A stretch of 64,000 nucleotides of DNA from Candidatus Sumerlaea chitinivorans (GTDB taxonomy: Bacteria; Sumerlaeota; Sumerlaeia; Sumerlaeales; Sumerlaeaceae): the NCBI GenBank assembly GCA_003290465.1, contig CP030759.1:248001-312000 (forward strand), in the 5' to 3' direction. Of this stretch, positions 44,146 through 47,544 are shown piece by piece. The position numbers and the translations under genes are program-made. The notes below the pieces were generated by a model that worked only from the letters and a program-made list of their open reading frames with translations, was not told the origin of the DNA and did no database searches. Every line of letters starts with the position of its first letter. The first letter of the stretch is position 1.

Positions 44146-45259
44146 GCAGGTGCACCGAGTTCTTCATCTGTCCACGGAGAAGGGGTGGCGTGGGGGAGAA
44201 CGACAAGTTAAATTGCTAACAAATGGTTTGCTGAGCCGCGGAATTGAGATCCGCGTCGCATGCCCACCCGATAGCGAGCTGTTTCATGATCGGGCAGAAG
44301 CTAACGTTGCGATCCCGTGGAGGGTGCGCAGTGAATTTGACCCGGTTGCCGTTGCAAACCTGATTTCCCATGTCCGCAGGTTTCGTCCTCAGCTTATTCA
44401 TGCGCACACCTCGCATGCTCATTCCATTGCATGGCTCGCAGCGCGTTTTGTAGGCCTGCCAGTTGTTGTCTCACGTCGCGTGGATTTTCCTATAGCCGGC
44501 AACTGGGCAGCACGCTGGAAGTATCTCTCGTCCTCGGTTTGGTTCATCGCCATTTCCGAAGGGGTTCGCAACGTCCTGCTCGGCGGGGGAGTTGATCCGC
44601 ACCGAGTCACAGTTGTCCATAGTGGGGTCGACCTGGACCGTTATCCATTCAGAAGTGGAGGGCGCGACCATGCGGAGGCAGCCAAGTGGGGGGTGCAACC
44701 TCACGAGTACTTGCTGATCAACGTTGCGGCACTCACCGACCACAAGGATCAGTCAACGCTTTTGCGAGCTGCTGCGGAGTTGCGCCGGATTCGAGACGAT
44801 TGGCGGCTCGTCATTGCAGGCGAAGGCGAACTGCGAGCCCACCTTGAGCGGCTTGTTGCAGAACTCGAACTGGGTTCGAAGGTTTGCTTTGCAGGGTACG
44901 TTCGCAATCTTGCTCCCCTCTACAGGGCGGCGGATTTGTTTGTCCTGTCCTCACACCTTGAAGGTCTGTGCACCTCGTTATTGGATGCGATGTTGGCGGG
45001 TGTGCCGGTGATTGCGACCCGCACGGGCGGTGTGCCTGAAGTTGTTGAAGACGGAAGAACTGGGCGCTTGGTCCCACCACGGGATCCGGTCGTGCTGGCT
45101 CAGACGATTGCGGAGCTGCTTGACCGTCGTGAATTGCGACACACCTACGCACACAATGCTCGCGAGAAAGTGGAGCGGGAGTTTTCGGCTGAGCAAATGG
45201 TCGAAGGGACCCTGTGCTTTTACGCGCACGTTTTGGAGCAGTGGAAAAGTTCGCCGTGA
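44138..45259 (+). CDS. Family 4 glycosyltransferase
   Basis: A 373-residue GT-B enzyme. VLHLSTEKGWRGGERQVKLL is the N-terminal acceptor-domain motif; QLIHAHTSHAHSIAWLAA and VVSRRVDFPI follow; the donor site is LFVLSSHLEGLCTSLLDAML with the EGLC variant of the EGFG/EGLP motif, then GGVPEVVEDGRTGRLVPPRD. ATG 44138 overlaps the waaF stop. Together with waaF and the WaaE-like gene it makes an LPS-core unit. The donor sugar cannot be read. Confidence 0.85.
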   Translation: MGEQVHRVLHLSTEKGWRGGERQVKLLTNGLLSRGIEIRVACPPDSELFHDRAEANVAIPWRVRSEFDPVAVANLISHVRRFRPQLIHAHTSHAHSIAWLAARFVGLPVVVSRRVDFPIAGNWAARWKYLSSSVWFIAISEGVRNVLLGGGVDPHRVTVVHSGVDLDRYPFRSGGRDHAEAAKWGVQPHEYLLINVAALTDHKDQSTLLRAAAELRRIRDDWRLVIAGEGELRAHLERLVAELELGSKVCFAGYVRNLAPLYRAADLFVLSSHLEGLCTSLLDAMLAGVPVIATRTGGVPEVVEDGRTGRLVPPRDPVVLAQTIAELLDRRELRHTYAHNAREKVEREFSAEQMVEGTLCFYAHVLEQWKSSP

Positions 45260-45322
45260 TCGTGCAAGAAGATAAAAAAACAGTTGCATGAATTCGGCGC
45301 TTGTGATGTATACGTGAATACA

Positions 45323-45409
45323 ATGATTCCCGCAAACTACATGCGCACAATTGTGAACCGCCTCGCTGCGGTAGTAGTAGCGCTTGTAGTCGTAGGCCTT
45401 GCGCCGTAG
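45323..45409 (+). CDS. ilvBN valine-rich leader peptide (28 aa)
   Basis: ATG to TAG gives 28 residues with a valine-rich end: RLAAVVVALVVVGLAP. Val codons GTA-GTA-GTA occupy 45371-45379, and GTA-GTC-GTA 45386-45394. A shorter in-frame start exists at ATG 45341 (22 residues) and a GTG at 45314. No strong SD is visible. The composition and position resemble E. coli IvbL, the leader of ilvBN. It lies inside a set of competing hairpins and ends 124 bases before ilvB. Confidence 0.8.
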   Translation: MIPANYMRTIVNRLAAVVVALVVVGLAP

Positions 45410-45452
45410 CGGGGATCGAGTCTGACTGATTGATTGACGCCCCCGCCGGCGC
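45361..45452 (+). promoter_or_regulatory. Attenuator: pause hairpin 1:2 and antiterminator 2:3
   Basis: Segment 1 (45361-45371, CCTCGCTGCGG) can pair with segment 2 (45404-45414) over 11 positions with two G-U pairs. Segment 2, extended to 45401-45414 (GCGCCGTAGCGGGG), can instead pair with segment 3 (45441-45452, CCCCGCCGGCGC) as 12 perfect pairs with a 2-base TA bulge. Segment 3 also forms the left arm of the terminator. A ribosome stalled on the Val codons covers segment 1 and frees 2 for 3; a ribosome at the stop codon covers 2 and allows the terminator. Inferred folding; not measured. Confidence 0.75.
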
Positions 45453-45480
45453 AGAGGTCGGCGGGGGCGATTCCTTTTCC
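45438..45480 (+). terminator. Attenuator terminator before ilvB
   Basis: CGCCCCCGCC (45438-45447) and GGCGGGGGCG (45460-45469) form a 10-bp GC stem, extendable by one pair, with a 12-base loop, followed by ATTCCTTTTCC. The T-run is interrupted but the stem is very stable. It lies 54 bases before the ilvB start. Confidence 0.82.
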
Positions 45481-45533
45481 CCCTTCCCACCTCCTGCTCC
45501 GTCGGGTCGGCAGTCGAAAGGAGAAAACAACCG

Positions 45534-47225
45534 ATGGAAGCAACTGGAGCACAAATCATCACTATACTCCTCGAGCGTCATGGCATCCGGTATATCCCGG
45601 GAATACCGGGAGGGGCGAACTTGCCGCTCTACGATGCACTTCGTGCGAGCTCGATTCAGCACATTCTCGCACGACATGAGCAGGGCGGTGGGTTCATCGC
45701 TCAAGGAATTGCCCGTTCCACGGGCCGGACTGCTGTGTGTTTCGCCACCTCGGGACCCGGAGCGACGAACCTGCTGACAGCAATTGCCGACGCTAAGCTC
45801 GATTCCGTGCCTCTTGTGGCGATCACTGGCCAAGTGCCATTGCGCATGGTCGGGACGGACGCTTTTCAGGAGATCGACACATACGGGCTCACCATTCCAA
45901 TCTCGAAGCACAATTACTTGGCACGGTCCGCTGAGGAACTTCTCGAGATTCTACCGGAGGCTTTCCGCATTGCGGCGAGTGGGCGGCCGGGGCCCGTCGT
46001 GATTGACGTCCCCAAAGACGTTCAGAACCAAAAAGTGCAATTTGACCGATTGCCAGATCCACTCCCGCTGGAGCCCCTTCCCGTGCCCACACCAGAAGCA
46101 ATCCGGGCTGCGTTGGAGCTCATCGAGCGTGCGCGACGTCCGGTGATTCTCATCGGAGCTGGCGTCGTGAACGCACAAGCGGGGCCAGCAGTCATCCAAC
46201 TTGCTGAGAAGCTCTCCGCGCCCATGGCCTCCACGCTTCACGGGTTGGGAGCGGTTCCGTCCAATCATCCAGCGATGCTTGGAATGGTCGGGATGCATGG
46301 AGCAAAGTCTACCAACCTCATTTTGCATGAGGCGGACCTGTTGATTGCGCTCGGCATGCGCTTTGATGACCGCGCTACAGGGAAAGCGGAGGAGTTCTGT
46401 CCGCAGGCAGCAATTCTCCATGTGGACATCGACCGGAGTGAACTCGGCAAAATAAAAACCCCAAGCGTTGCGGTGCAAGCTGACGTTGGCATGTTTCTGA
46501 AAGCGGTCCTCGACGAACTGCCACCTGCTGGATGTCGGGCCGAGTGGTTGGCACGGGTGGAGCACCTGCGAGACCAGTATCCGTTGGATACCCCGGGAGC
46601 AAATGACCCGCTTCAACCCTACGGCGCTGTCCTACAGACTGCACGCATTCTGGAAAAGGATCCTCCTATCGTCGTCACCGACGTCGGCCAGCATCAGATG
46701 TGGACGGCACAAGCTTTCCCCTTCTCGTTCAACCGTCAGTGGCTGACCTCGGGCGGACTCGGCACGATGGGTTTTGGGTTGCCCGCCGCGATCGGCGCTG
46801 CCTTGGCCAATCCGCATAAGACGGTGGTGTGTTTCAGTGGCGACGGTAGCTTGCTGATGAACATTCAGGAATTTGCCACGGCCGCCGAGCTGGGCGTGAA
46901 CGTCAAGGTGATGCTCATGAACAATGCTCACCTTGGCCTCGTGCGGCAGCAGCAGGAATTGTTTTATGGTGGGCGCTACCATGCTTCACGCTTCGAGGCC
47001 CAGCCCGATTTCGTCGCAATTGCGCGTGCGTTTGGCGTGGCTGGCTACGACCTCGGTTCGACGAGCGATCCGCTGGATCTCTTGGAGCAGGCGCTGCTTG
47101 CAGAGGGGCCATGCTTGGTGAACGTGCCAATTCCAGAGACGATGAACGTGCTGCCCATGGTGCCACCGGGCGCTCCTAACACCCAAATGATCGAAGGAGG
47201 AACTTATGCATCCGCAAGTCGCTGA
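45534..47225 (+). CDS. ilvB: Acetolactate synthase large subunit (AHAS I type)
   Basis: A 563-residue thiamine-diphosphate enzyme making acetolactate or acetohydroxybutyrate for valine, leucine and isoleucine. Glu49 in HILARHEQGGGFIAQG is the cofactor-activating residue; SGPGATNLLTAIADAKLDS, GTDAFQEIDTYGLTIPISKH, DVGQHQMWTAQAFPF and the TPP/Mg motif SGDGSLLMN...MNN follow. GTDAFQE and the end MVPPGAPNTQM resemble E. coli IlvB (isozyme I) closely. AAAGGAG lies before the ATG. Regulated by the valine attenuator just upstream. ilvN overlaps its last 20 bases. Confidence 0.95.
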   Translation: MEATGAQIITILLERHGIRYIPGIPGGANLPLYDALRASSIQHILARHEQGGGFIAQGIARSTGRTAVCFATSGPGATNLLTAIADAKLDSVPLVAITGQVPLRMVGTDAFQEIDTYGLTIPISKHNYLARSAEELLEILPEAFRIAASGRPGPVVIDVPKDVQNQKVQFDRLPDPLPLEPLPVPTPEAIRAALELIERARRPVILIGAGVVNAQAGPAVIQLAEKLSAPMASTLHGLGAVPSNHPAMLGMVGMHGAKSTNLILHEADLLIALGMRFDDRATGKAEEFCPQAAILHVDIDRSELGKIKTPSVAVQADVGMFLKAVLDELPPAGCRAEWLARVEHLRDQYPLDTPGANDPLQPYGAVLQTARILEKDPPIVVTDVGQHQMWTAQAFPFSFNRQWLTSGGLGTMGFGLPAAIGAALANPHKTVVCFSGDGSLLMNIQEFATAAELGVNVKVMLMNNAHLGLVRQQQELFYGGRYHASRFEAQPDFVAIARAFGVAGYDLGSTSDPLDLLEQALLAEGPCLVNVPIPETMNVLPMVPPGAPNTQMIEGGTYASASR

Positions 47226-47544
47226 AAACAACCTGCATCCGGCGGAGGAAATCATTCGAGATGCACGCCGCCCAGTGCTTCGCCTCATTGTGCGGAATCA
47301 TCCTGGTGTCATGTCGCATATTTGTGGGCTCTTTGCCCGGCGAGCATTCAACGTGGAGGCGATCCTGTGCCTACCGATTGGCGACGGATCGCGTAGCGTG
47401 ATCCTCCTGCTCGTGGATGAGGACGAACGACTGGATCAGCTCATTCGTCAGCTCGAGAAGCTTCACGATGTCCTCGAAATTCATCGTGAATCTGATGGCC
47501 ATGAACCTTTTGAGGCGATGGCACGCTATCTTGAGTCGCACTGA
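47206..47544 (+). CDS. ilvN: Acetolactate synthase small subunit (IlvN-like)
   Basis: A 112-residue ACT-domain regulator of IlvB, giving valine feedback control and full activity. LRLIVRNHPGVMSHICGLFA and RRAFNVEAILCLPIGDG are the ACT motifs. It lacks the second domain of IlvH-type subunits (about 160 residues) and so matches the short E. coli IlvN. SD GGAGG lies before the ATG inside the end of ilvB (20-base overlap), so the two are coupled. Confidence 0.93.
   Translation: MHPQVAENNLHPAEEIIRDARRPVLRLIVRNHPGVMSHICGLFARRAFNVEAILCLPIGDGSRSVILLLVDEDERLDQLIRQLEKLHDVLEIHRESDGHEPFEAMARYLESH

Follow-up and report, generated by a model that had tools for sequence, protein, structure and literature searches.

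A predicted valine attenuator of the ivbL type, with its leader peptide, upstream of ilvBN in the phylum Sumerlaeota

The ilvBN operon of Candidatus Sumerlaea chitinivorans is preceded by what is very probably a ribosome-mediated transcription attenuator of these genes, homologous to the ivbL element of Escherichia coli and responsive to charged tRNA-Val; the tRNA sensed is probably above all the one that reads GTA and GTC. The element lies in the 64-kb stretch of genomic DNA analyzed here, referred to below as the window. A complete valine attenuator of the ivbL-ilvBN type had been proposed from the sequence of this locus, and the leader sequence, its relatives, its codon use and RNA folding all back the proposal, regulation by valine being predicted. 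Much of the literature sets amino-acid leader attenuators mostly in Proteobacteria and Actinobacteria; hints from other phyla came later. A recognizable relative of ivbL in a phylum sampled through 40 genomes, tied across several phyla to one type of enzyme, opens the question of whether a gene and its RNA control move together.

The leader ORF is present as the original prediction had described it, Val-rich and 28 codons long (Table 1). Six of its seven Val codons fall within the last 12 codons, and five of the seven are GTA, a codon that makes up 9.4% of Val codons in the genes of the window and none of the 39 in IlvB (p 1.3e-4). The other Sumerlaeota leaders chiefly use GTA and GTC for valine, and rare control codons would raise the sensitivity of the switch. 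Like the ivbL type, the locus thus has, close upstream of ilvB, a short ORF in which Val codons cluster; it is kept in relatives, its translation being predicted. A scan of both strands of the window turned up no other short ORF that is rich in branched-chain codons and has a terminator after it; a strict scan returned five terminator-like sites, only one of which, the ilvBN leader terminator, had a branched-chain-rich short ORF ahead of it.

Table 1. Features of the ilvBN leader region and of the two genes downstream, in window coordinates
Feature	Position	Strand	Details
Candidate promoter	45284-45314	+	-35-like TTGCAT at 45284-45289, -10-like TATACG at 45309-45314
Leader peptide ORF	45323-45409	+	ATG at 45323, TAG at 45407-45409; 28 codons, MIPANYMRTIVNRLAAVVVALVVVGLAP then stop; ends Ala-Pro-stop
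Segment 1, best supported	45325-45333	+	pairs with 45409-45417; minimum-energy fold; compensatory changes in L003 and L004
Segment 1, as originally predicted	45361-45371	+	can pair with 45404-45414; isolated fold only; not conserved in L003 and L004
Control codons	45371-45394	+	GTA GTA GTA GCG CTT GTA GTC GTA; GTA enrichment, binomial p 1.3e-4
Segment 2, antiterminator 5' side	45399-45414	+	spans the leader stop codon
Segment 3, antiterminator 3' side	45441-45453	+	takes in the terminator loop bases CGGCGC
Intrinsic terminator hairpin	45438-45469	+	13 pairs, 45438-45450 with 45457-45469, loop of 6; then ATTCCTTTTC
ilvB, AHAS-I-type acetolactate synthase large subunit	45534-47225	+	PRK08155 842.6 bits (curated cut-off 870); TIGR00118 652 (cut-off 538)
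ilvN, AHAS small subunit	47206-47544	+	PRK08178 133.8 bits (cut-off 128); Pfam ACT_AHAS_ss

Folding of the leader and its parts yielded both an antiterminator (2:3) and a terminator (3:4), in accordance with the pairings first noted. The antiterminator joins 45401-45414 to 45441-45452 through 12 pairs, with a two-base bulge (UA) inside the stop codon that segment 2 spans. Folded in isolation, this segment reaches -29.1 kcal/mol (z -3.2), and the base of its helix extends by one or two pairs, to about 45399. The terminator hairpin had been described as ten pairs followed by a T-rich tail, which understated its length, since the helix has 13 continuous pairs; the tail (ATTCCTTTTC) is an interrupted, weak T run. 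The hairpin folds at -32.6 kcal/mol (z -4.2), with none of 200 shuffled sequences as stable, and the fold of the whole leader is likewise more stable than those of 200 shuffles (z -4.2).

Comparative evidence was obtained for both structures. The terminator helix covaries, with four pairs changed on both sides and a covariation score above those of all 500 shuffles. Column-wise covariation of the antiterminator in a fixed alignment was not significant, because the register of the pairing shifts among genomes. In a swap test on 17 diverse sequences, the pairing of each segment 2 with its own segment 3 was matched by none of 10000 permutations, a result that persists after removal of row and column effects, i.e. 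of the general pairing strength of each segment. Within Sumerlaeota alone the same test was not significant (n = 6, p 0.13), as the six sequences have much sequence in common. Pairing with the last two codons of the leader explains why the terminator loop bases GGCGC, which take no part in the terminator helix, hardly vary. Folds and swap test thus indicate an antiterminator incompatible with the terminator and masked when a ribosome sits on the stop codon.

Segment 1 calls for a revision. It had been placed at 45361-45371, and the 11 pairs with 45404-45414, two of them G-U, do exist and form when 45356-45420 is folded alone. At minimum energy the complete leader lacks them and instead pairs 45325-45333 with 45409-45417; as a conserved feature, the stem of 45361-45371 was rejected for the two nearest relatives (L003 and L004). 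In both of these, the stem formed by codons 1-4 shows changes matched across its sides (GAUUCCCGC/GCGGGGAUC; GCAUCCCGC/GCGGGGAUGC; GCAACCCGC/GCGGGGUUGC). In L005 and L006, segment 2 finds its best partner just 5' of the Val codons, as had been proposed for the window. Possible 1:2 pairings occur in most relatives, at varying places; the stem seems to be wanted while its position drifts. By analogy with trp, his and ilv attenuators, its role would be to favor termination of an untranslated leader.

With ample Val-tRNA, a ribosome would reach the stop codon and cover segment 2; the 3:4 hairpin would then form, and transcription would stop near 45475-45480. With Val-tRNA scarce, the ribosome would stall on the control codons and leave segment 2 free to pair with segment 3 once this is made, and RNA polymerase would continue into ilvBN. 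We infer these steps of stalling, termination and valine response, and predict the order of folding, for a leader whose ORF, pairings and conservation are observed. In folds of the growing transcript, the antiterminator is preferred for 3' ends 45446-45466 when the ribosome is stalled at codon 17, and for 3' ends 45446-45463 when it is stalled at codon 22; it never formed with the ribosome on the stop codon. Past 45469, the complete terminator is more stable wherever the ribosome sits, so that the decision must be kinetic, the antiterminator being assumed, as usual, to form first.

Transcription may start at the leader ATG or close to it, as suggested by two observations within the family of the window (f1). 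A TTGCAT box lies 38-41 bases 5' of the leader ATG in three members (the window, L003 and L004), and Shine-Dalgarno pairing is weak at the leader ATGs of the family (+0.7 to -6.1 kcal/mol, vs -7.9 to -9.5 at its ilvB genes). The candidate promoter of Table 1 would put the transcript start at the ATG or a few bases before it. A consensus promoter scan gave no site over threshold, and a leaderless or nearly leaderless f1 transcript is therefore a guess. The leader peptide of ilvBNC in Corynebacterium glutamicum reportedly lacks a ribosome-binding site (title of Morbach 2000, as cited in PMC10272879).

The genes downstream agree with an ivbL-type element. PRK08155 is the best NCBIfam family for ilvB, which scores slightly below the cut-off, and ilvN lies above that of PRK08178; IlvB falls in the AHAS-I clade, and the predicted target of control is the AHAS I pair, as in the ivbL type. 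The two genes overlap by 20 bases, and each has a strong ribosome-binding site of its own. The genome encodes a second AHAS large subunit, an ordinary one with 42% identity, some 50 kb upstream (G000:C1:243089-244813).

On the original proposal, the leader ORF and its stems should recur in relatives. AHAS-I-type IlvB was found in 8 of the 40 Sumerlaeota genomes sampled, the remainder having ordinary AHAS only, and the window protein is 58-76% identical to the other seven. Leader and terminator are kept at all eight loci: the leaders are Val-rich, count 25-34 codons with a Val run and all end in GCG CCN stop (Ala-Pro), and a GC-rich terminator follows 25-34 bases past the stop. A model of the 87-nt core scored 74.8 bits at the element, which belongs to its training set, and 18.1 bits at the next best site in the genome. 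A blind covariance model was built from eight Pseudomonadota sequences only, none from Sumerlaeota; in the 3.29-Mb genome, it finds the element with 44.6 bits (E 2.8e-7), and no other site reaches E <= 0.01. Across Sumerlaeota, the best seven matches of the blind model are all Val-leader elements, and the eighth element (G011, 30.8 bits) ranks under two unexplained matches at 35-36 bits.

A joint model applied to 398 Pseudomonadota genomes returned 10 matches above 55 bits, all of them 5' of AHAS-I ilvB, while the following matches, at 45.6 bits and lower, do not precede this gene. Among weak matches (25-46 bits) in other genomes, at the loci examined, some (L129, L133) precede AHAS-I ilvB and others precede DAHP synthase or nothing notable, so a score lower than about 46 bits does not count as evidence on its own. 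The claim of homology is carried by score and position jointly, not by score alone.

Val leaders before related ilvB genes occur in Pseudomonadota, Myxococcota, Bacteroidota, Spirochaetota, Fibrobacterota and three further groups. The ivbL-like arrangement 5' of AHAS-I ilvB is found in Enterobacteriaceae (the known ivbL), in other Pseudomonadota, in the G053 group (three genomes from a lineage of another phylum), in G063 and in G156. Remoter members of the IlvB clade with Val-rich leaders, most of them with clear terminators, come from Myxococcota (L048, its leader ending VVVVVVDAP before the stop), Spirochaetota (L046 and L047), Fibrobacterota (L055) and Bacteroidota (L084). In a tree of 36 IlvB sequences, whose inner supports are modest, the AHAS-I group forms one clade (99/95), nearly all of it with a Val leader. 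Family f1 adjoins a group that includes G063, the G053 group and all Pseudomonadota; the three other Sumerlaeota members (families f5 and f6) are placed elsewhere, with weaker support. A single clade for all eight Sumerlaeota IlvBs, a group named before the tree, was weakly rejected (AU p 0.029).

An independent origin in Sumerlaeota, the likeness to ivbL being forced by function, would be in keeping with leader attenuators of ilvB having evolved more than once (Corynebacterium ilvB-II, ilvB-OMG and the Leptospira ilvB motif; PMC10272879, PMC8632094) and with the differing leaders before other Sumerlaeota AHAS genes, which suggest repeated origin. We nevertheless consider it unlikely in view of the single AHAS-I clade, of the GCGCC-stop and CCGGCGC core that most Val leaders have in common, and of the detection of the element by a model blind to Sumerlaeota. 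Chances are slimmer still for a plain terminator of an unrelated upstream transcript lying beside a chance Val-rich ORF: the upstream glycosyltransferase gene ends at 45259, which makes a terminator in the gap unremarkable in itself, but the leader, the position of its stop and the antiterminator partner are kept at all eight Sumerlaeota AHAS-I loci and in other phyla, the loop is conserved for a pairing outside the terminator, and the leader is enriched in GTA. A riboswitch or T-box binding a ligand or tRNA directly, with the ORF incidental, is highly improbable, for although the ilvB genes of other bacteria use T-boxes and a T-box-like leader (GGTGGTACCGCG) precedes the AHAS-I ilvB of Fusibacter, the window and 11 related loci match no Rfam family at gathering score (nor was there a meaningful match at E up to 5), an aptamer has no room beside the ORF, and the ORF is conserved.

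The position of the Pseudomonadota genes, nested in the IlvB tree among the other genes with Val leaders, and the rejected Sumerlaeota clade suggest that gene and control probably moved together between phyla. AHAS-I is patchy (8/40 Sumerlaeota and about 10/398 Pseudomonadota genomes), and tree and occurrence together favor exchange between phyla with the control attached. Two expectations attached to the original prediction, a wider range of the mechanism and an operon that moved with its control, both gain support from the tie of the element to AHAS-I IlvB across several phyla, which suggests that enzyme genes and switch have been inherited and exchanged together. More tentatively, and with somewhat less than even confidence, we put forward that the AHAS-I genes and the valine attenuator are one ancient cassette that travels between phyla as a unit, with E. 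coli ivbL-ilvBN a late recipient, and that in f1 the leader ORF is translated from an mRNA with little or no 5' untranslated region, so that its first codons also serve as segment 1.

Several neighboring systems were noted along the way. Ordinary AHAS genes of other Sumerlaeota families carry different branched-chain leaders followed by terminators (L117, L119, L120, L122 and L014/L146, of the same class as the window); with endings such as V-R-R-P, V-R-L-P or LVLVVAIIIVA, these may be additional attenuators that arose separately. In L129 (G156; -363..-94) and in L084 (-351..-118), a single AHAS-I ilvB is preceded by a tandem of Val-rich leader ORFs, two in number and each with its own terminator; they are predicted to be tandem leader-peptide attenuators in two unrelated lineages. 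Long Val-rich leaders that do not end in Ala-Pro were seen before ilvB in L034 (Accumulibacter) and L035 (Azospira); their antiterminator pairing is weak, so the layout of the switch may differ. In Fusibacter paucivorans (L042), the T-box-like leader, recognized by eye, lies about 150 bases 5' of AHAS-I ilvB, where there is no Val leader, and would mean that one kind of control has replaced another before this gene. Before DAHP synthase in four Pseudomonadota loci (L158, L159, L161 and L162), a short ORF with many Tyr, Phe and Trp residues (e.g. GYFFYGYWF) is followed by a terminator, and judging by sequence these leaders would resemble an aromatic amino acid attenuator.

The mechanism is textbook: this is very probably a real, complete and ordinary valine attenuator in an unusual lineage, and its interest is mainly evolutionary. 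Its reach is wider than the literature we found, though ivbL-like elements may already have been described in some of these phyla. A paper of 2010 held that only Proteobacteria and Actinobacteria had been shown to have leader-peptide systems, its authors then adding Firmicutes (PMC2965389); uORF attenuation of ilvB has been argued to be common, ilvB-OMG of various phyla included (PMC10272879). Rfam holds no family for the element, nor for the E. coli ivbL locus, and the sequences gathered here offer a seed alignment for such a family, as well as a putative valine sensor open to leader-swap reporter work in E. coli.

Among known systems, the Corynebacterium ilvB-II motif and ilvBNC attenuator also combine a branched-chain-rich uORF with attenuation before ilvB (PMC10272879, PMC11857589), but they concern another enzyme group (ilvBNC) in another phylum, a distinction drawn by description. 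The ilvB-OMG and Leptospira ilvB motifs likewise have uORFs rich in branched-chain amino acids before ilvB, ilvB-OMG in several phyla (PMC10272879, PMC8632094); unlike these, neither the window nor its related loci match an Rfam family at gathering score. The closest likeness is to ivbL-ilvBN of E. coli and Enterobacteriaceae, from which the element differs in a longer antiterminator helix (GCGGGG with CCCCGC past the stop) and a longer terminator, in GTA instead of GTG/GTC as main Val codon, in a weak leader Shine-Dalgarno with a perhaps leaderless transcript, and in having few Leu control codons, whereas the 32-codon ivbL, with twelve Val and Leu codons, responds to both amino acids (PMC11187965). 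The two share a Val-rich leader of 28-34 codons ending in Ala-Pro-stop, an antiterminator formed from the last codons, the stop and the bases that follow, a GC-rich terminator with CCCCGCCGGCGC, and AHAS-I genes downstream, and the likeness is close enough for a model made from Pseudomonadota only to find the element.
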